From positions 1,617,001-1,681,000 of the forward strand of contig JAGUCH010000008.1 in NCBI GenBank assembly GCA_019096065.1: DNA of 64,000 nt, in the 5' to 3' direction. How positions within the stretch are numbered: the first letter of the stretch is position 1; each line of letters begins with the position of its first letter. This stretch comes from Paracyclopina nana. Its lineage: Eukaryota > Arthropoda > Copepoda > Cyclopoida > Cyclopettidae. Made by a program: the position numbers and the translations under genes. Of this stretch, positions 17,212 through 44,900 are shown piece by piece. The notes below the pieces were generated by a model that saw only the letters and a list, made by a program, of their open reading frames with translations, did no database searches and was not told where the DNA came from.

Positions 17212-17600
17212 TTAAAACCACGTGGCTTTGTTTACATTGCTGTTCTTGCGCCCAGCAGCAACAACAACAACTTTGAAGTGTTGTGCTTGAGAGCGACAAT
17301 GATTGGGATGAGCGACAGCTGACTGCCCACATGGCTTTGTTTACAATGCTGTTCTTGCGCTCAGCAGCAACTGCGACAACTACTTTGAAGTGTTGTGCTT
17401 GAGAGCGACAATGACGGAAACAGCTGGCTGCACAGGTTGATGCTGCTGCCTCGTCCAATAACAACAACTTTGAAGTGTTGTCTTTGAGAGAGGCAAGCAC
17501 AGCTGATGGTTCAATTGGTTTGTTTATGGCAATGAGATGTCCACTAGCTTAGCACAGCAACAACTTTGAATTGCTGTTCTTGAGAGCCATGATGACAACA
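17212..17600 (+). repeat. Three to four diverged copies of an about 110-bp unit in CK1-gamma 3' region
   Basis: Copies start with CCACGTGGCTTTGTTTACA (17218) or its variant CCACATGGCTTTGTTTAC (17327). They continue with TTGCTGTTCTTGCGC and CAGCAGCAAC, and end with ACAACTTTGAAGTGTTGT plus GCTTGAGAGCGAC. Shorter copies lie at about 17450 and 17545. They follow the stop at 17192 directly, so they are probably in the 3' UTR. Confidence 0.8.
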
Positions 17601-19624
17601 AATAACTGATCACCTGCAATGTGCTGCAAATTGACAAGTGGTTTGCTTGAGAGCGACGATGTCAACAAACAGCTGACTTATATACAACAGCACTGGATAT
17701 GTAGGTGCTGCTGCTCATCAAAACAACATTGCTGTTGATGTCCTCAACAACAGCATTACAAAGCAAGTCAGAGTCATTACAGTCATGAACCATGAGGCTT
17801 ACAGATAACAAGGATGCATCAGAGCCAAAATATTGCTGTTGTTGTTGTGTTTAACAACATTTGGATGTTGCTACCTGACAGTTGTTGTTGCGTTAAGGCT
17901 GAACTGAAAACATCATTGTTGTTGTTCTCAACAACAGCATTAAAAAGCCATTACAAAGCCTTGCGATGACATGACAGTGTTGCTGTTATGGTGGTGTGCC
18001 TAAGAACAAACATGAACCAAGTGACTTTGTATACAAACAAAGGCGTAGCTCAGCCAAAAAAATGTCGCTTCTTAGCAACAACAAAAGCGTTGTTGTTGTG
18101 TCCCCAAGAACAACAGTTGACACCACGTGGCTTTGTTTTCAAACGACAACACAGCATTTTGCTTAACAACAGCAATGTTGTTGTCACTGCTGTGCTTAGG
18201 TGAAACCACGTGGGTGGCTTGTTTTCATTTGTGTTGTGGTCATCTTTGAAAAATTGTGGTGTTGTTGACATTGTTGCCAAAAAACTGAGAAAAAAAAACC
18301 AGAAGACAATTTTTACTGCTACGAGCTGTGATGAAAAAAATGAAAGATTTTGAAAACTGAGGCAAAAAAGTAAGAGAGTGTAATAGACACAAATGTGCTG
18401 ATGCTCAACCAAACAAGTGACAATTTTTGGCATAAATTCAAGAATGAAAAAAACAACAACAACAAAAGTGCTTGTGAAGAAAAATAAACATTGAGATGAA
18501 CATGGTCTTGAAAAAAAACTACATGTAAAACTACTACTACTACAATTATCATAACTATTATTAAAAACAGCAACAAGATTCCAATTTTCCTCCCCTTTTT
18601 CTCAAAGTCCTTGACGAAAAGTTATGAAAAAAAAACCTCTTTCTAAATTAGCAAAAACACAAGCAAAAAAATGCTCTCTTTTTTCAGTTGCATTTTTTAA
18701 GTTGGCAGCATGATAATTATAATTATTAATATCAAATTCACCCTTTTTAAAAAGTGTAAAAAAAGAGTTTTTTTCTTAAAAGCTGCTGCTGCTGCTAAAC
18801 TGATGAGAAGAAAAATTCATTATAAAGATGCATGAAGAATATTTCAGAAAAACAGTGAAATATCTCGTCCTGAAAATTATTGCTGCAACTTCTTTTCCTC
18901 CTAATTTTTGTGATCATAATTCGATTATCATTCATAGTAACGATTATCATCATCAACCAAAACGAATACATCAGTTTCTCGTGACTACTCATTCTTTTTT
19001 CGAAATTCAACTATTTAAAAAAGTCATTTTTCCATAAGTAAAGATTTTTTCTGCTGGCTTTTTTAAGGTTTTATGGAATCGCCAAAACACACAGGATTCT
19101 TTTTCCGAATTGGGCCAGGACCTTAAAACAACTACCAAATGGATAAATACATAATAAAGTTAAGTCTTATCTTCTCCATTTTCTGAATAATTCAGGCATA
19201 TCTAAAAAAAATCCCGTCAGTTAATTTAGTAATTGCGAGGACTATTTGCGAATTCGCCTTAAATGGCTTAATTATCAAAAGGCCAGCACAAATATTTTTG
19301 CCAGCATTTGAGGAATTAGTAAGGAGTCCAAGGCAAGAGCAAAACTGACGCCGACACGGATTATTTGAGCAGAGCACTCTTCACTATTTCAATGGGGTCG
19401 CGTTTATCAGTTTTTTTGCGAATTACGGCAATTCTTCTCGCTCCGCTCGGTTGGTTGCGCTATTCCAAAAGAAATCAACCAAAGTTTCATTTTTATCGCA
19501 CCATACTCTAGATGAATCGAAAACCTACTTTTCCTAGGCGCGAAATTGAAATATATGCATTAAGGTAGTTGTGGATTTTACGACATAAATTTATTCAGAA
19601 GGTTGATCTGATCCAAAAAGCAGC
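17600..19624. other. Probable CK1-gamma 3' UTR and intergenic DNA, CAA/TTG-rich
   Basis: From 17600 to about 18280 the sequence is dominated by CAACAA and its complement TTGTTG, so hairpins are easy to form. CCACGTGG-type motifs recur at 18123 and 18205. From 18280 on it is AT-rich with A/T runs and no supported gene. The tail after 19500 is the 3' flank of the minus-strand RpS25 gene. Confidence 0.5.
19590..19595 (-). terminator. Poly(A) signal (AATAAA on minus strand), RpS25
   Basis: TTTATT on the plus strand, 30 bp beyond the RpS25 stop codon at 19625. Confidence 0.7.
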
Positions 19625-31991: not shown

Positions 31992-34900
31992 TCATGGGTC
32001 ATTGTAAAAGCTCAACTCAAGAATCATCACCGATCCATAAGAGCCTAAGGCAAACTTGGAATCGAAATAATTGAATCCGGTTGCCATGATCCGCCCTGGT
32101 CCTTCGATCCTGTTTACAAGCAATCCAGATTTGGTATTCCAGAAGTACACATGACCATCATGGCCAGCTGAGGCCAAATAAAGGCCACTTTTACTGGAGC
32201 TGAGGCAATTCACATATCCCATGCCTTCTTGAAGGCTGAAAAGACATAGGCCTTTGATGGTATCCCAAATCTTGACTGAGCCATCAAATGAAGCTGAGGC
32301 CAGCCTCGAGGTTGTTGATAGCCAGGCCAAATCAACTACATAGCCAAAGTGGCCTTCAAGGTTTTTGGCCTTGTGAGGCTTTTTTGAGGACAAGTCCCAG
32401 ATTTTGATGAGGCAGTCAACTGAGCCAGAGGCCACAACCTCTCGGTTCACAGGATGAGGGGCAAGTTTGTACACACCACCATTGTGAGCAGACAGCCTTT
32501 TCAAAGGCCGAGTCTCTGGTATGAAATCTTCCTCGTCATACTTTTCAAGCTGAAATATTCAAATTGGCAGAGCATAAACTTGGCATTCCACAACTATTTC
32601 AAAACTTCACTCTCATCTACAATAAGGTTAACATAAACTAGGCTCAGCTAAATCAAGCATCTCAGTCAATGCTGAATTTGTGAAGCAAATTAACTGAGTC
32701 TTCTAAGCTAGTTGACACTAGTTCATGCTCAGTGACAGAGAAAAAACTTACTTTAAAGCACTAATTTCCAGAAATAAATCTACTATCATTTATCAACATA
32801 TTTAGTGTGTAGTCACCTTTGGTTTTTGAAGATATGTTATTGAACTATGTAGGTTATAGCAAGTTATCGAGAAGGGCTTTGTTATGTCATGAAACTAAGG
32901 TTTTAAATACGCTTGGTCTCAGTACAAAACTAGTGTCAACTAGCTTAAAATACTCCGTTGATTAAGAAACCAAATTTAGCATCTAATGAGTCGCTTGATT
33001 TAGCTGACTCTAGTTAAAGCCTCTTTAATGAGGCTTCTCAATTAGAAAGACTTGGTGAGTTTTTGTATTCTTTGTCAATTGACGTAGTTCGCCCAAAGAT
33101 AATTAAAGATGTAAGCAGTCTAAGGCTCTTAAGCAACAACAACAACAGTGAATGTCATTCTAGGTTGGCTTCAAAAGATCTGAGAGAGAAAAAGAGAGAG
33201 AAATGCTCAACATTGCTCAAATTAGATCTACTCTAACAGTAGCATATACACAAAGCATGCCATTCCTTTGATCCCTTTATAATCAATGCAAAAAAAGATC
33301 TAACTGCCAAGTGACATAGCCTTTTTTCACACAAAAAATGTCCTTATAAGATAGCTGAATGAATGAATCTTTAAGGCTGCTATGACGTCATCAAGGGATT
33401 TGAACTTGCTATAAAAAGAGAGTCAATATCACAGGGCTCTAGGTAATTTTAGGTCAGGATTTTCCCTCTTAGGTACCTTTTTAAACCAATCAAGATGTAT
33501 CTGGTCCATGGTGATGAGTCCAGAGGCTTCAGCTGCAATGTAAATTGCATTGTCTATCCATTGGATTGCAGTGATTGAGGCTTGGTTCCAACAAGTCAGC
33601 TGGGCTGTTTTCTCAAGCAGATTGTAGACACAAATCTCATCAGCTCCACTGAGCACAAAATCATGATTGGAATTCATTTGCACACATTTCACACTAGATG
33701 TGGCATGAGCTTGCCAAGAATGAATGAATTTCCCAGTTGAACTCCATGTAGACACTTTTCCATTGTTAGAACCTGAAAAGTTTTTAAATGACACAAACAC
33801 AAATTTTCAATTTCCCAAAGTCCTAACTCTAATTTCAGTTGAGGGAACTGAAATACAAACTTATATTTGGATTGAGTGCAAAATCTTGCCAAAATAATTA
33901 ATGAAGTCATAAATTATGATACTTTTCAAACAATTTGGCAAATTTTTTAACTTCACTAAAAAAACATGTAACTCTGCCAAAATCTAATTGCTAAATGTTT
34001 TTGCCAAATTAAGAAGGAAGGAAAATATCAACTTAAGTAGATGAACATGGCAGAAAAATTCACCTAAAATGATCATCTTGCCATTTTCTGACCAGGAAAG
34101 GCAAGAGACTGAGTCTTGACCTGGCAGCTCAATGGGCATGACATCTACAGACTTGGCATCTTGGAAAATCCTGCAATTCCACAGGAAGGCTTTTCTATCT
34201 GTGGAAGCTGTCACAAAAAGATCTTGCTTGGGGCTCCATTCACACAAGTCGACATATTGGCTGTGGTATTTGTCTAGCAGCACTGAATTGACAATCTCAA
34301 CCTCGACATTTTTCTTCTCTGCACCTGCAAAATTATCAAGACATAGAAGACTAGTTTTCCTCATCGAACATTCATGATCCTTTTTGAAGTTTTCGGCCAA
34401 CTGACAAGTCAAAAAGTGCCAACTTCATTTGTTTTGTGTACTTCCAAGTACAATCTGGATGTATCGTGCTTTTCCAAAGTAATCAAAAGTTAACTTATTT
34501 CTTAATTTAAACAGAGTAATAATTGAAAAGAAAGCTACTGCGGTTAATTACCAAACTTTGATAAATTGCTTTCTTTCATTAAGTGGTAACAAAGGGTGAG
34601 CATATAATTACTATAGCTTTGTCGACAAAACTTCAAGTTTGGAGCCAACAGTGTGCCCAAAATGTGCCACAATTTGTCAAGCGTCAACGCTTCAAAGGCT
34701 AATCTGGATTTTATATTTGATGCATATTTCACCTGAAATTGCTCTACTAAACTTGTTTTTCTCACTGAACATGTAAGTTCCTCTTTGAAGTTTACAGCCA
34801 ATTGACAAGTCAAAAAGTGCCAACTTCATTTGTTTTGTAATTTCAAAATCCCAATCCGGATGTAATATGCTTACTTTTTCTTCGCTTGTTCCTAGGGCTC

Positions 34901-38559: not shown

Positions 38560-38760
38560 ATATAATATTTTACTGGTAAATTGAAGGTACACTATGGAAC
38601 TCTTAGATACACTTAGCTACACTTTGGTATAGTACTTTGGTATACTTTGGTACACTTTGGTACACTTTGGTACTCTTTGGTACACCTAGGTACACTTTGG
38701 TACACCTAGGTACACTTTGGTACACCTTGGTACACTTAGGTACATCTTGGTACATCCGGC
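38560..38760. repeat. 10-bp satellite (GGTACACTTT) upstream of the LINE-derived gene
   Basis: About 15 copies of TACACTTTGG, with CCTAGG and CTTAGG variants, end roughly 160 bp before the start codon of the next gene. Confidence 0.9.
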
Positions 38761-38918: not shown

Positions 38919-41516
38919 ATGCATGTCTGCCACTGTGTCACCAAAGGTCTTGGAGTGAAGAAGAGAGTCAATGAAGAAGAAGACCACTATTTTCGTGACG
39001 TTTGCTATTTGGCAACTTTCTCTGGAACCAGATCCACTTTTCTGGCTACCTTTGGCCTACTTTGTGCACTGAAAATGCCACCACATGTCTCTCGCCTGCT
39101 AGAAATGTCCAACGACATAGAGAAGAATCCTGGACCTCCAAAAGTGGTCAAGAATGGACTGCTCTCCTCCAAGATGGCGCCCAATACAGTTAAAATCCCA
39201 GCAGTGAGCAATGGGGATCTTCCTGTGGAGATACTCACCTTCGAGGATCTCAAGCAGGTTGTGGAGAAGCAGAATGAGCTCATCAAGGCTCAGAAGCTCG
39301 AGTTGGAAGTGCTGAGGAAGCAGATGGAGAAGAATGTCCACCTAACGCAGGATTTTCAGTCCGAGCTCAGCGAGATCCGGAAGAACTGGCAAAACTTGAG
39401 TGACAACAAGACAGTTGTGAACAGCAGTAATCCTTCTGCAAACAAAAGTGGGGCAGCGATTGAGGATGTCGTGCTGAGACTCGATGCCTTGTCATCAGCT
39501 TACACTGATATCCAGGATCGGCTGTACGAGCTGGACAAGAGCTGGAAGAACAACCTTATGATCTATGGAGTACCATGCTGTGATGGAGAAGAAGATGATC
39601 CAATAATCACCGAAGAAAAAGTAAGTTTCTTTGTTGACACTTCCGTTTCCCTTGTGTTTTCTTTGTTTACATTTCCGTTTCCACCCACGTGGTTTTGTTT
39701 ACATTTCCATTTCCGCCCATGAGCATTTCCGTTTTCCCCAACGTGGCTCTGTTTACAACAACATAAGCACCCACGTGGCTTTGTTTACATTTCCATTTCC
39801 GCCCATGTGCATTTCCGTTTTCCCCAACGTGGCTCTGTTTTACAACTACAAATGCACCCAAATGTCTTTGTTGATTTTATCGATTCCTCGTGATTTGCAA
39901 TGTTTTAATTGATGTTTTTTCATAGGTGAAAGAAGTTTTGCACAAGAAGTTACACATTTCGCGAGAAATCATGATGAACAGAGTGAGCAGGCTCAATTAT
40001 GGCCCGGATTTCCGGGGCCACAAACCGATCCAGGTTTGCCTGGTCAACTACAGAGACAAGGAGGAAATCCTGCGAAAGGCCAGGCTTCTCAAAGGCTCCA
40101 ACATTTACATCTCCGAGGACTTTTCGCGCAAAGTCCGGGAGCATCGCAATGAGCTGATTAAGTTCATGAAAGAGGTGAAGAATCGAGATCCAGGACGTAG
40201 GATGACTCTGAGATACGACAAGTTGTACATTGGCAATGATGTCTTCTTCTTCAATGATCGATCTGGAAGAGTGGAACGACTCCATACACCTTTGGAAGTT
40301 GGATCGAGCAACTTTAGTAATCTCATGGGAGACAACAGCAGTGTAAGTGACTACTCCTTTGTTGACACTTCCGTTTCCGACCACGTGGTCTTTGTTCACA
40401 GTTCCATGATTCGACATGGCTTCGCAGACCCAGATCCCGAATGGGACCAGGAATGTCATCCGGATCAAGATGTCCCACGCCCTTGTCAAGGCAAAATTCC
40501 ATGTCAATGGAGGATTTCACCACATCAATGTCATCATCGACAAACTCAAGAGTATCCGGAAGTGCTCGATTTCCTCGGTCAGGTCATGGATCCCCTCGAA
40601 AATCCGCATCCAACGATTCCCTCCATAATCATCATTACAATGACAGTGATCATCACCAATCAACAAGGCAGAATTCTGCATCCAATCCACACAATCATTA
40701 CCCAAATTACCCGGTTGAAAGTTACTACAATTCAGAACCGGTTAGGAGCAATCCGGGGTCTCCTTCCAAGCGAGTGGCATTCAAGGGAGTGGGCAATCAT
40801 TACATCAACCATCCCATAGCTCCATACCAGCCTTATGAAGTGGCCAATGGCTCCAACAGGATGGACACTCCACATTTCATGAACAATGAGGATCTTTTGG
40901 CCATTGAGGCAGACAGCCATCACCAGCCAAGGTACATACTTCTGGCTCATGACTTTGTTTACGCTTCCGTTTCTGGCCACGTGGCTTTGTTTACATTGCT
41001 TACACTTTCAGAAACAGCTACCCTGCCTTGACAATGAACTCCAATAATGTGGTTCCGTACAAGCCCATGGATCGATCCATCATCCCCACTTCCAAGGTTC
41101 TGGTCAGCCCAAACAACCACATGGCCAACAACTTCCCTCCCTTGGACTATGTGCAGCAAGCCTTGATGGCCAGATCATCAGATGACAAGTACTTGAATGA
41201 GCCCAACCCAGTGAGAAAGTCCTCAGCTTTGCCTGCCATAATGCCACCCAACCATGGAGCCATTCAGCCCTACCAAAATGGCTATCAAAATGATACCAGT
41301 GACAATGAAGAGCAAGATGAGAAATTAGAGCTGGAATACCAAGGCCAAGAGCTGGTCAAGGCCAAAATGGCTGCCATTGAAGACAAAACTACCAACCCAC
41401 CACCACCCACTCCTGTTCCAACCACGACCACAACATCAACCACCACTAGCAATGGAGTGATAAAAGTGGCCATGGTGGCAGACATTTCCATGTCAAACTT
41501 CCATCAATGCAAATAA
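38919..41516 (+). CDS. LINE ORF1p-like protein gene with 2A-like motif and introns (candidate domesticated retrotransposon gene)
   Basis: Four exons: 38919-39620, 39926-40342, 40402-40931 and 41012-41516, in phase, give 717 residues. Near the N-terminus a hydrophobic patch (FLATFGLLCALK) is followed by DIEKNPGP (residues 66-73), the 2A-like ribosome-skipping signature found in several non-LTR retrotransposons. Then come a coiled coil (about 105-150), an RRM-like segment (KNNLMIYGVP) and a basic C-terminal domain (RKARLLKGSNIYISEDFS, ending LYIGNDVFFFNDRSGRVERL). That is the L1 ORF1p order. Exons 3-4 add a Ser/His/Asn-rich tail of about 340 residues unlike ORF1p, with polyPro/polyThr near the end. 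No reverse transcriptase or endonuclease lies nearby. Introns plus an intact frame suggest a host gene. All three introns share one repeat family. AATAAA at 41929. Confidence 0.75.
39114..39137 (+). other. 2A-like ribosome-skipping motif (DIEKNPGP)
   Basis: Eight codons match the D-V/I-E-x-N-P-G-P consensus exactly. The preceding residues are SRLLEMSN, so the usual Gly before Asp is Asn here. Skipping would occur between Gly72 and Pro73, releasing a 72-residue leader. Confidence 0.75.
39621..39925 (+). repeat. Intron 1 of the LINE-derived gene: tandem TTTGTTTAC/TTTCCGTTT/CCACGTGG units
   Basis: The intron holds two larger units, each containing CCACGTGG(C/T)TTTGTTTAC (39685, 39771), ATTTCCATTTCCGCCCATG and CAACGTGGCTCTGTTTTAC-type half units (39739, 39825). 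Before them is CTTTGTTGACACTTCCGTTT. Introns 2 and 3 carry the same blocks. Confidence 0.9.
40343..40401 (+). repeat. Intron 2 of the LINE-derived gene (59 bp), same repeat family
   Basis: Almost the whole intron is GTAAGT plus CTTTGTTGACACTTCCGTTT, then CCGACCACGTGG and TCTTTGTTCACAG. The acceptor itself (TTTGTTCACAG) falls on the repeat's TTTGTTTAC word. Confidence 0.85.
40932..41011 (+). repeat. Intron 3 of the LINE-derived gene (80 bp), same repeat family
   Basis: It contains GACTTTGTTTACGCTTCCGT, TTCTGG and CCACGTGGCTTTGTTTAC (40977-40994), with a normal GT...TTTCAG frame. Confidence 0.85.
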
Positions 41517-41971: not shown

Positions 41972-44900
41972 TCAGTCTTCAGAATAGAAATTCCTACAAC
42001 CAGCCAAGCAATACTCATATCTGAAAGGTAAAATAAATGTTATGTACTGACATGACAAGGCTAAATATTGCTGGTCTCAAGGACCAAAGGCCGTTCAAGG
42101 CTGCAGACAAGGTCATATTTGACAAGCATTTTCATTAAACATTACTAAATATAAGCATAAAAGTCACGCACAATGAATAATATCTGTCTTATGTAACTAA
42201 ACAACGAACAATAATAAGGAAAAAGGCTGAAATATTGGCTTATTTTCAGATTGTTAGCAAAGTTTCGCAAGAACAATGCCTATCATCCTCATTTAAAATT
42301 CAAGTTTACTTTGAATTGCTTCATGCCACGTGGTTGCGCCGGAAATGTAAACAAAACTTCGCGGAAAAAACGAGCAGCAACCGGAAACGTCAACAAAGGC
42401 GGCTCAAAAGCAGGAATGAGCCCTTTTTGCCATAAATAAAAGTTGACATGCAAGAAACTATTAAAGCAAATATACCCTAAGAATGTCGCTCCATTGAGAG
42501 GGAAAGCTCTGAGAGACATGACAACCAAGCCACGACCAAAAATGCGAATTCCACCTTCTTTGTAGCACTTTTGGAATGTATCAATCATCCCATGGTATTT
42601 GGGATTGACTGGATCATCAGCCTGAATCCTAGATTTCACCACATCCAAATAAATAATGACAGCCCAGGAGATCACACCTGAAATGACAAATAATAGTAAT
42701 AGTAAAAAAAATGATGGTAAGGTGCAGGTGCACACCTGTCATGCCTCCAGCAAAGAAATTACAAGCAAAGGAGTCTTGGCCACACTGAGCAAGAAAGTTG
42801 TGGTACAGGACCATGTAAACTCCAAAAGAGTGAATGTCCCTGTAAATTAGGTTTATTAGTGAATTAATATTTTTTTTGCTGAGTCATCATTTGCTGGAGG
42901 AGACTATGACAGGAGGAACACTTGTCAGTTCAGAGTACCTGCCAGTCCTCCAGCCATCAAAATGGATTTGGCGTCCTTCTTTTCCCTAATCAGGTTGTGG
43001 TACAACAAGACGTAAACAACAGAGGCTTTCATGTCCCTGCATTAGAAAGCCATGTCATTCCTGCATTATTAGCTTTCAATAAAGCATATCTTACTGATCA
43101 CATTCGGCTGAGACTGAGAATCTTCTCAGACCCTACAGAGACTGAAATCTTCTCAAATACAACTGAGATTTTGATGAGACTAATACTTTTCTGCAACTGA
43201 GACTCTTCAGAGTCTATGACTCTACCGTTACTGATACTCAACCGAGACTGAGACTCAGCCGAGACTGAGACTCAGCCGAGACTGAGACTCAGCCGAGACT
43301 GAGACTCAGCCGAGACTGAGACTCAGCCGAGACTGAGACTCAACTGAGACTGAAACTCAACTGAGACTGAAACTCAACTGAGACTGAGACTCAACTGAGA
43401 CTGAGACTCAACTGAGACTGAGACTCAACTGAGACTGAGACTCAACTGAGACTGAGACTAAGACTCAACTGAGACTAAGACTCAACTGAGACTGAGACTA
43501 AGACTCAACTGAGACTGAGACTAAGACTCAACTGAGACTGAGACTCAACTGAGACTGAGACTCAACTGAGACTGAGACTCAACTGAGACTGAGACTCAAC
43601 TGAGACTGAGACTCAACTGAGACTGAGACTCAACTGAGACAGAGACTCAACTGAGACTGAGACTCAACTGAGACTGAGACTCAACTGAGACTGAGACTCA
43701 ACTGAGACTGAGACTCAACTGAGACTGAGACTCAACTGAGACTTAGCCTTAACTGAGACTGAGACTCAACTGAGACTGAGATTCAACTGAGACTGAGACT
43801 CAACTGAGACTGAGACTCAACTGAGACTGAGACTCAACTGAGACTGAGACTCAACTGAGACTAAGAATCAACTGAGACTGAGACTCAACTCTGACTAAGA
43901 CTCAACTGAGACTCAACTGAGGCTCATCTGTGACTGAGACTCAAATGATGCTGGGACTCAACGGAAACTTACAGAGACTTTAAAAATAGCCTGAAAATTC
44001 ATAACTGATAATTCGCAGAGCCTGGCTGAAAATCTATTTTAGTGCTGCAATTAGTGTTGAGGTTATGAAGGAAAAACACGCATAAACATAATTGGAATTA
44101 AGGGATTAATCTGTGCTCGGCAAACAAAATCAGATTATGCGGTTGCATGCTACTACAATCACAAATACCTGCAATGCCACCAACCCACACAGTTTGAAAA
44201 AGCGATGGCAATTCCCCATGCTTTTTGCTTAGAAGTGAGTCAAAGATCCACTCATAGGCAATTATATAGACGCCGTATGATGGTACATCTCTTTAAGAAA
44301 AGCGAACTAAAATTTTGTTGAATTGTATTTGAAAGTTATACAATGCAAAAAGTTGTGAAATAACCGCTCTTAATTAAAATTATTTGGGTTCAAAAGAGCT
44401 TAACAAAATAGTGTTCAAATGAGTGAAATACATTTTAAATGAGTGAAAAGGATTTCAAATTAGTGAACTAGATTTCAAATGAGTGAAAGATTATTCAAAT
44501 GTGTGAAATATTATTCAAATGTGTGAAATAGATTTCAAATGAGTGAAATATTATTCAAATGTGTGAAATAGATTTCCAATGAGTGAAACAATTTTCAAAT
44601 GTGTGAAATATCATTCAAATCAGTGAAATATAGATTTCTAATAAGTGAAATAGATTTCCAATGAGTGAAGCAGCAAATGTGGCTTAAACTTTAATTGTGG
44701 AATAGAGTTATATACCTGAATGCCATTGGTACAAGTCCTTTGTACCATCCTTTGACTCCATGTTGTCTATAAATGCTTCGTAAACAGTCATAAGGTCCCT
44801 TGTAATGCGTTTTGTCAGTGGCTTGGCCTACAAAATATCAAAATTAGATGCTTTTACAATCATAATCAAAGTTTCTTTCTTTTTGCACTTCTACTATTAT

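Follow-up and report, generated by a model that had tools for sequence, protein, structure and literature searches.

Non-LTR retrotransposons that carry a 2A ribosome-skipping motif, CR1/L2-like elements and others, were reportedly described by Odon et al. in 2013. At the copepod locus studied here a 2A core stands just before a coiled coil and an ORF1-type core, as in tick proteins, but the locus differs from such elements in having introns, single-copy orthologs and a long tail with a conserved end, and in that no reverse transcriptase (RT) was found. Ribosome skipping is described as common in RNA viruses and is called rare in cellular genes (PMC12846837), cellular 2A sequences being known in sea-urchin NLR genes and retrotransposons (PMC11512398). 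In the sea urchin S. purpuratus, an N-terminal 2A also acts as a signal sequence and partitions proteins between the cytosol and the secretory path (PMC4981915). The copepod gene resembles these NLR genes in its cellular N-terminal 2A, with a leader of 26 residues there and probably about 20 here. The NLR genes are not LINE-derived in that account, and their leader is hydrophobic and acts as a signal sequence, whereas the leader in the clade of this copepod gene is non-hydrophobic.

L1TD1 of placental mammals has been described as unique among known genes in that nearly all of it comes from LINE-1 (PMC4161310). The copepod gene is like L1TD1 in being a host gene whose protein derives from a LINE ORF1, but it involves another LINE and another animal group, forms part of a multi-gene family, has a new tail and is spread over three copepod orders; the abstract on L1TD1 mentions no 2A. 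The EKA effectors of powdery mildew are also genes from LINE ORF1, but these are recent and exist in very many copies beside live LINEs (PMC4641428), and no ORF1 family in common is shown. Going by these sources, LINE-ORF1-derived genes and cellular 2A sequences are each already known; their combination as a gene family in copepods of three orders may be new, though part of it may be in print. Our literature search returned no paper on a copepod 2A gene, the 2025 survey of eukaryotic 2A sequences by Rao et al. lying outside its reach. The family represents a second animal lineage in which a LINE ORF1 protein has turned into a host gene, in this case as several genes whose introns are conserved and whose tails are new, and its recognisable orthologs in several copepods open the way to comparison and experiment on what cells use skipping for.

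The window is the whole analysed stretch of 64,000 nucleotides from the Paracyclopina nana genome (positions 1617001-1681000 of contig C8), and positions below refer to it. We consider, with moderate confidence, that this copepod host gene arose from the ORF1 of a LINE that carried a 2A, and that it belongs to a set of eight intron-bearing relatives; its translation would start at M53, its leader would be split off by skipping and its main product would begin at P73. Four exons (38919-39620, 39926-40342, 40402-40931 and 41012-41516) join into 717 codons with no internal stop, separated by three introns that all have GT-AG ends (Table 1). A spliced alignment was made with an aligner written for this analysis, using as query P0001, an uninterrupted 718-residue ortholog from a 2603-nt contig. 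This alignment, which was blind to the earlier intron calls, returned the identical three introns, and thus confirmed independently that the unbroken frame and the introns given in the preliminary description are real.

Table 1. Features of the ORF1p-like gene, in positions of the window.
Feature	Positions	Strand	Basis or remark
In-frame upstream extension M1-K52, probably 5' untranslated	38919-39074	+	background-like codon score
Exon 1, coding from likely start M53	39075-39620	+	P0001 alignment, A at -3, codon usage
Predicted 2A leader, 20 residues, M53 to G72	39075-39134	+	likely start M53, leader/ortholog comparison
2A core DIEKNPGP	39114-39137	+	predicted skip between G72 (39132-39134) and P73 (39135-39137)
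Coiled-coil region, about residues 100-197	39216-39509	+	sub-cut-off Pfam matches; profile alignment to LINE-1 ORF1p
ORF1p core (RRM/CTD-like), part 1 of 2, residues 198-234	39510-39620	+	profile match
Intron 1, 305 nt, phase 0, GT-AG	39621-39925	+	full of dispersed 32-nt repeat (86-nt tandem)
ORF1p core, part 2 of 2, residues 235-356	39926-40291	+	exon 2 ends at 40342
Intron 2, 59 nt, phase 0, GT-AG	40343-40401	+	spliced alignment
Exon 3, Ser/His-rich tail, in which WLRRPRS and SRQNSMSMED are conserved	40402-40931	+	spliced alignment, ortholog comparison
Intron 3, 80 nt, phase 2, GT-AG	40932-41011	+	spliced alignment
Exon 4, remainder of the tail, with the stop codon	41012-41516	+	spliced alignment
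Conserved C-terminal motif NGVIKVAMVADISMSNFHQ, residues 695-713	41445-41501	+	ortholog comparison

When 552 bases of exon 1 were searched as DNA against the genome, which comprises 92 Mb in 10 contigs, the only match was the gene itself. Protein search gave 17 matches, of which four fall within this gene and the other 13 (25-54% identical) are spread over six further loci, and an eighth locus (C8:4297323), which ORF1-type exons adjoin, came from the motif scan described below. The seven further ORF1p-like loci lie on C2, C4, C7, C8 (three) and C9, and the 2A core is present in six of them. Spliced alignments placed introns in all eight family loci. The gene is single at the DNA level, but it is not a lone gene, being one of eight related intron-bearing loci.

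Orthologs extend the family beyond this species. The nearest named proteins come from Lepeophtheirus salmonis, Tigriopus californicus and Eurytemora carolleeae, which belong to the Siphonostomatoida, Harpacticoida and Calanoida, respectively. In the tree with extra orthologs, the gene falls in an ortholog clade of 12 rows (support 100/99). In the tree of the ORF1p core described below, where this clade likewise has support 100/99, salmon louse proteins occur in three copepod groups, namely this clade, a group in which P0023 joins the C8b locus (98/95) and the C4 group, which includes P0022 (98/95); the paralogs predate the divergence from the salmon louse. P0016, the product of a Trinity transcript, belongs to a different clade from this gene and carries the 2A core.

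Two intron positions are shared within the family. The phase 0 junction E-E-K|V is common to this gene and the C4 paralog, and it is at this point that the database records P0034, P0035, P0080 and P0082 either depart from the protein or contain an insert. A second junction, KFM[RK]x|, is common to C9 and C2 (there KFM[R]x|I), and P0081 and P0082 diverge at the matching KFMKE|V. Such divergence or insertion in database records is expected of read-through into introns. Other intron positions differ among the paralogs.

As tblastn queries, 30 frames of this genome that contain an RT, drawn from an RT list of 150 of the 658 scored, found nothing in the window or at the eight family loci, while a control locus gave 61 matches; the longest open stretch in the window is 321 codons. 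That the locus is a decayed or rearranged LINE copy has next to no chance of being correct and is already contradicted: a protein core and a 2A of LINE type are what such a copy would offer, but the frame is uninterrupted, the gene has three introns at positions in part common to paralogs and database records, its ortholog clade extends across copepods, and neither a second DNA copy nor a downstream RT frame was found. The preliminary description had proposed that a LINE ORF1 was turned into a host gene that keeps its 2A motif and has no RT behind it. On this point it is supported by the conserved introns, the orthologs in other copepods, the lack of RT matches and the single copy; the many near-identical copies with RT downstream that would speak against it were looked for and not found.

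The origin of the protein from a LINE ORF1 is well supported by sequence comparison. A profile search started from 14 family sequences reached 74 proteins, and the matches outside the copepod-like set include tick proteins, the nearest non-copepod hits, from Ixodes, Rhipicephalus, Dermacentor, Amblyomma and Haemaphysalis (E 6e-28 and weaker). In these tick proteins SGDVETNPGP or SGDIETNPGP is accompanied by a coiled coil and by a core starting with ENRSRRNN, the layout of a non-LTR ORF1, and from this layout and their number they presumably reside in LINEs. In a tree of the core (36 rows), a branch with support 98/98 parts the copepod rows from seven tick and three other LINE-type rows. When 44 sequences, from the family and from ticks, were combined in one profile, LINE-1 ORF1p of known structure, next after the tick proteins in closeness, supplied the four best PDB matches, 2ykp (6e-5), 2yko, 2ldy and 2w7a (E up to 0.004), in an alignment that begins in the coiled coil, with homology over coiled coil and core. 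A profile of the 14 copepod-family sequences alone had no LINE-1 ORF1p among its 39 PDB matches. Since LINE-1 ORF1p is reached only with ticks in the profile, descent from ORF1p runs via the tick-type proteins. Among single-sequence Pfam searches, no family reached the cut-off for the core, and coiled-coil matches at residues 101-162 were below it; a genome search for Transposase_22 was negative, with a control that matched only in Haloferax and below the cut-off.

The 2A core was sought throughout the genome with the exact pattern D[V/I/A/T/M]ExNPGP. Seven sites were found in 92 Mb, against none for the pattern written backwards. Each of them precedes an ORF1p-like family locus or falls at its start, which accounts for seven of the eight loci. 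When the loci were instead taken from the protein search, which is blind to the motif, six of seven had the core; the exception is C7, where the DNA examined around the locus contains none. The DIEKNPGP of this gene fits the StopGo/2A core as defined in the literature, (D/G/C/N)(V/I)ExNPGP (PMC12846837). It is preceded by the hexapeptide LLEMSN, which, set beside a known class of upstream hexapeptide that is Leu-rich and has Gly before the Asp, has two Leu but Asn rather than Gly at p11. Viral 2A sequences with Asp at p12 are described as strongly preferring Gly at p11 (PMC12846837), and the Asn suggests that skipping may be partial.

The position of the core relative to the start codon decides how long a leader would be released. 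The frame is open from 38895, upstream of M1 at 38919, and the preliminary description accordingly had a leader of 72 residues, with a hydrophobic patch, split off as a second product. We regard this as very improbable. The stretch M1-K52 scored -0.37 bits per codon, close to the mean of the flanking background (-0.43), and 222 of 579 stop-free background stretches score at least as high, while M53-G72 scored 0.30, within the range of coding windows (0.07 to 0.66). Position -3 is A for M53 (39075) and T for M1. Orthologs start near M53, with shared surroundings P-H-V-x-R-L-L-E, and no ortholog alignment covers more than 12 residues of the stretch M1-K52. The non-coding codon usage of M1-K52, the start context and the ortholog starts thus make M53 the likelier start, and the leader most likely has about 20 residues, i.e. 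it would be the 2A element itself. The hydrophobic patch (about residues 40-53) is then probably untranslated, so that of the order first proposed for the protein, a hydrophobic patch, the 2A, a coiled coil and an RRM-like core, the patch would fall away, and DIEKNPGP, the coiled coil and an ORF1p-type core stand.

Leaders are short at several loci with an in-frame Met near the core (20 residues in this gene, 21 in C8b and C2 and 28 in C4), and C8d has one of 33 residues. At C9 no in-frame Met lies in the same open stretch as the core, and at C8c the sole Met is 70 residues upstream.

The character of the leader bears on targeting, which the preliminary description had suggested as one role of the 2A. 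If the leader were both a signal sequence and a skip site, the product would be divided between cytosol and secretory path, as is known for S. purpuratus (PMC4981915), and the leaders of many paralogs are indeed Leu-rich, with a maximal 9-residue hydropathy of about 1.8 to 3.5 (C9, C8b, C2, C4, P0007, P0014 and P0023). The same measure is 0.22 in this gene and -0.74 to 0.97 in its clade (7 rows), where the leader is charged and Arg59 and Glu62 are conserved in all six core-keeping orthologs. Dual targeting is therefore improbable for this gene, and removal of the leader together with control of output is favoured over it.

Retention of the core was counted within the ortholog clade. Seven of 11 members have it (this gene, P0001, P0002, P0004, P0005, P0034 and P0035) and four predictions do not (P0006, P0080, P0081 and P0082); the count omits P0003, a second model of the salmon-louse gene with a more internal start, as well as P0008, P0083, P0084, P0085 and P0086, which are fragments of the tail alone. 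The absence in P0006, P0081 and P0082 may reflect a different 5' exon or intron read-through. The closest ortholog, P0080 (86% identity), starts with Met-Pro-Pro-Lys exactly where the skipped product is predicted to start. This speaks against a universal need for the leader, and fits a protein from P73 onward as the working form; because the tree makes this coreless protein the nearest ortholog, the odds for skipping are slightly lowered.

These data also bear on whether the core could have been kept without skipping, as an inherited N-terminal stretch that serves a different purpose or is gradually being lost, so that a single product is made. The Asn at p11, the four coreless predictions with P0080 among them, and C7 all favour this reading, which we nevertheless consider unlikely, if still deserving of weight. 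The residues that are kept are those of the viral consensus, while the position between E and N varies freely (K, L, Q, S, T, M or I), a comparison whose rows were chosen by the motif; and the core occurs at six of seven loci recognised by their ORF1 core alone, regardless of the motif. Strict conservation of the core was dropped as proof, because the rows in the leader alignment were picked by the motif and its invariance there is no test.

On the favoured reading, that of a host gene whose leader is skipped, the expressed mRNA would be spliced and translation would most likely start at M53. The leader ending in DIEKNPG would stall the ribosome from within the exit tunnel, the peptide would be released at G72, and synthesis would resume from P73. 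The main product would be a 645-residue protein beginning with proline, which, by analogy with LINE-1 ORF1p, may assemble as a trimer via the coiled coil and bind RNA via the RRM/CTD core. It would bear the new, phosphorylatable tail with the conserved C-terminal peptide. The purpose of the skip in this clade is the least certain step: it may be removal of the leader and tuning of output rather than targeting.

More tentatively, and as a possibility that we rate somewhat below even chances, ORF1-derived genes may have kept skipping since the copepod ancestor as a built-in first step of translation, with a leader of little more than the 2A and a working protein that always begins at the post-skip proline. 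One branch would have lost a signal-like leader and kept the core, and P0080 would have swapped the skip for direct initiation. If signal-like character was lost while the core was kept, selection would act to keep skipping, not targeting.

Conservation is uneven along the rest of the protein. Mean identity to the six core-keeping orthologs is 0.74 for residues 186-356 and 0.51 for the coiled coil; in the tail it is 0.71 for residues 374-400, which include WLRRPRS, 0.23 for most of the remainder and 0.51 for residues 695-713. From these values, the tail is mostly free, but its basic, Ser-rich start and its C-terminal peptide are conserved. The C-terminal peptide is also present in the tail fragments P0008 and P0083-P0086. 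Proteins of the C4-type subfamily (P0007, P0017, P0021 and P0022) end in a conserved PETIPE peptide, a further sign of selection on tails.

A dispersed 32-nt unit, TTTGTTTAC...CACGTG, recurs with one orientation in all three introns of the gene; it contains what we take to be forkhead-like and E-box-like words. Elsewhere in the window the unit occurs at 17218-18140, 35848, 36096 and 42379. Genome-wide, one half of it has 128 sites at up to two mismatches, compared with three for the reversed control, and the other half has 105 sites at up to three mismatches, compared with six. At the 12 repeat loci examined, one of them intron 1 of this gene, some copies look intronic and others lie beyond stop codons. 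As all three introns share it, the repeat was considered as an introner, an intron-making transposon whose ends would be the splice sites; these mixed contexts, and a C4 intron at the same position that lacks it, tend to speak against this.

The remainder of the window holds ordinary neighbour genes, recognised by Pfam matches, for a WD40 protein (31995-32558) and a mitochondrial carrier (42292-42738), both on the opposite strand. Part of a nuclear-receptor zinc finger (zf-C4, 1.4e-9) lies in a long open stretch at 1896-2858. Two tandem arrays were also seen, one upstream of the gene at 38586-38754 (10-nt unit GGTACACTTT, about 17 copies) and one just past the mitochondrial-carrier gene at 43230-43962 (17-nt unit, about 43 copies).
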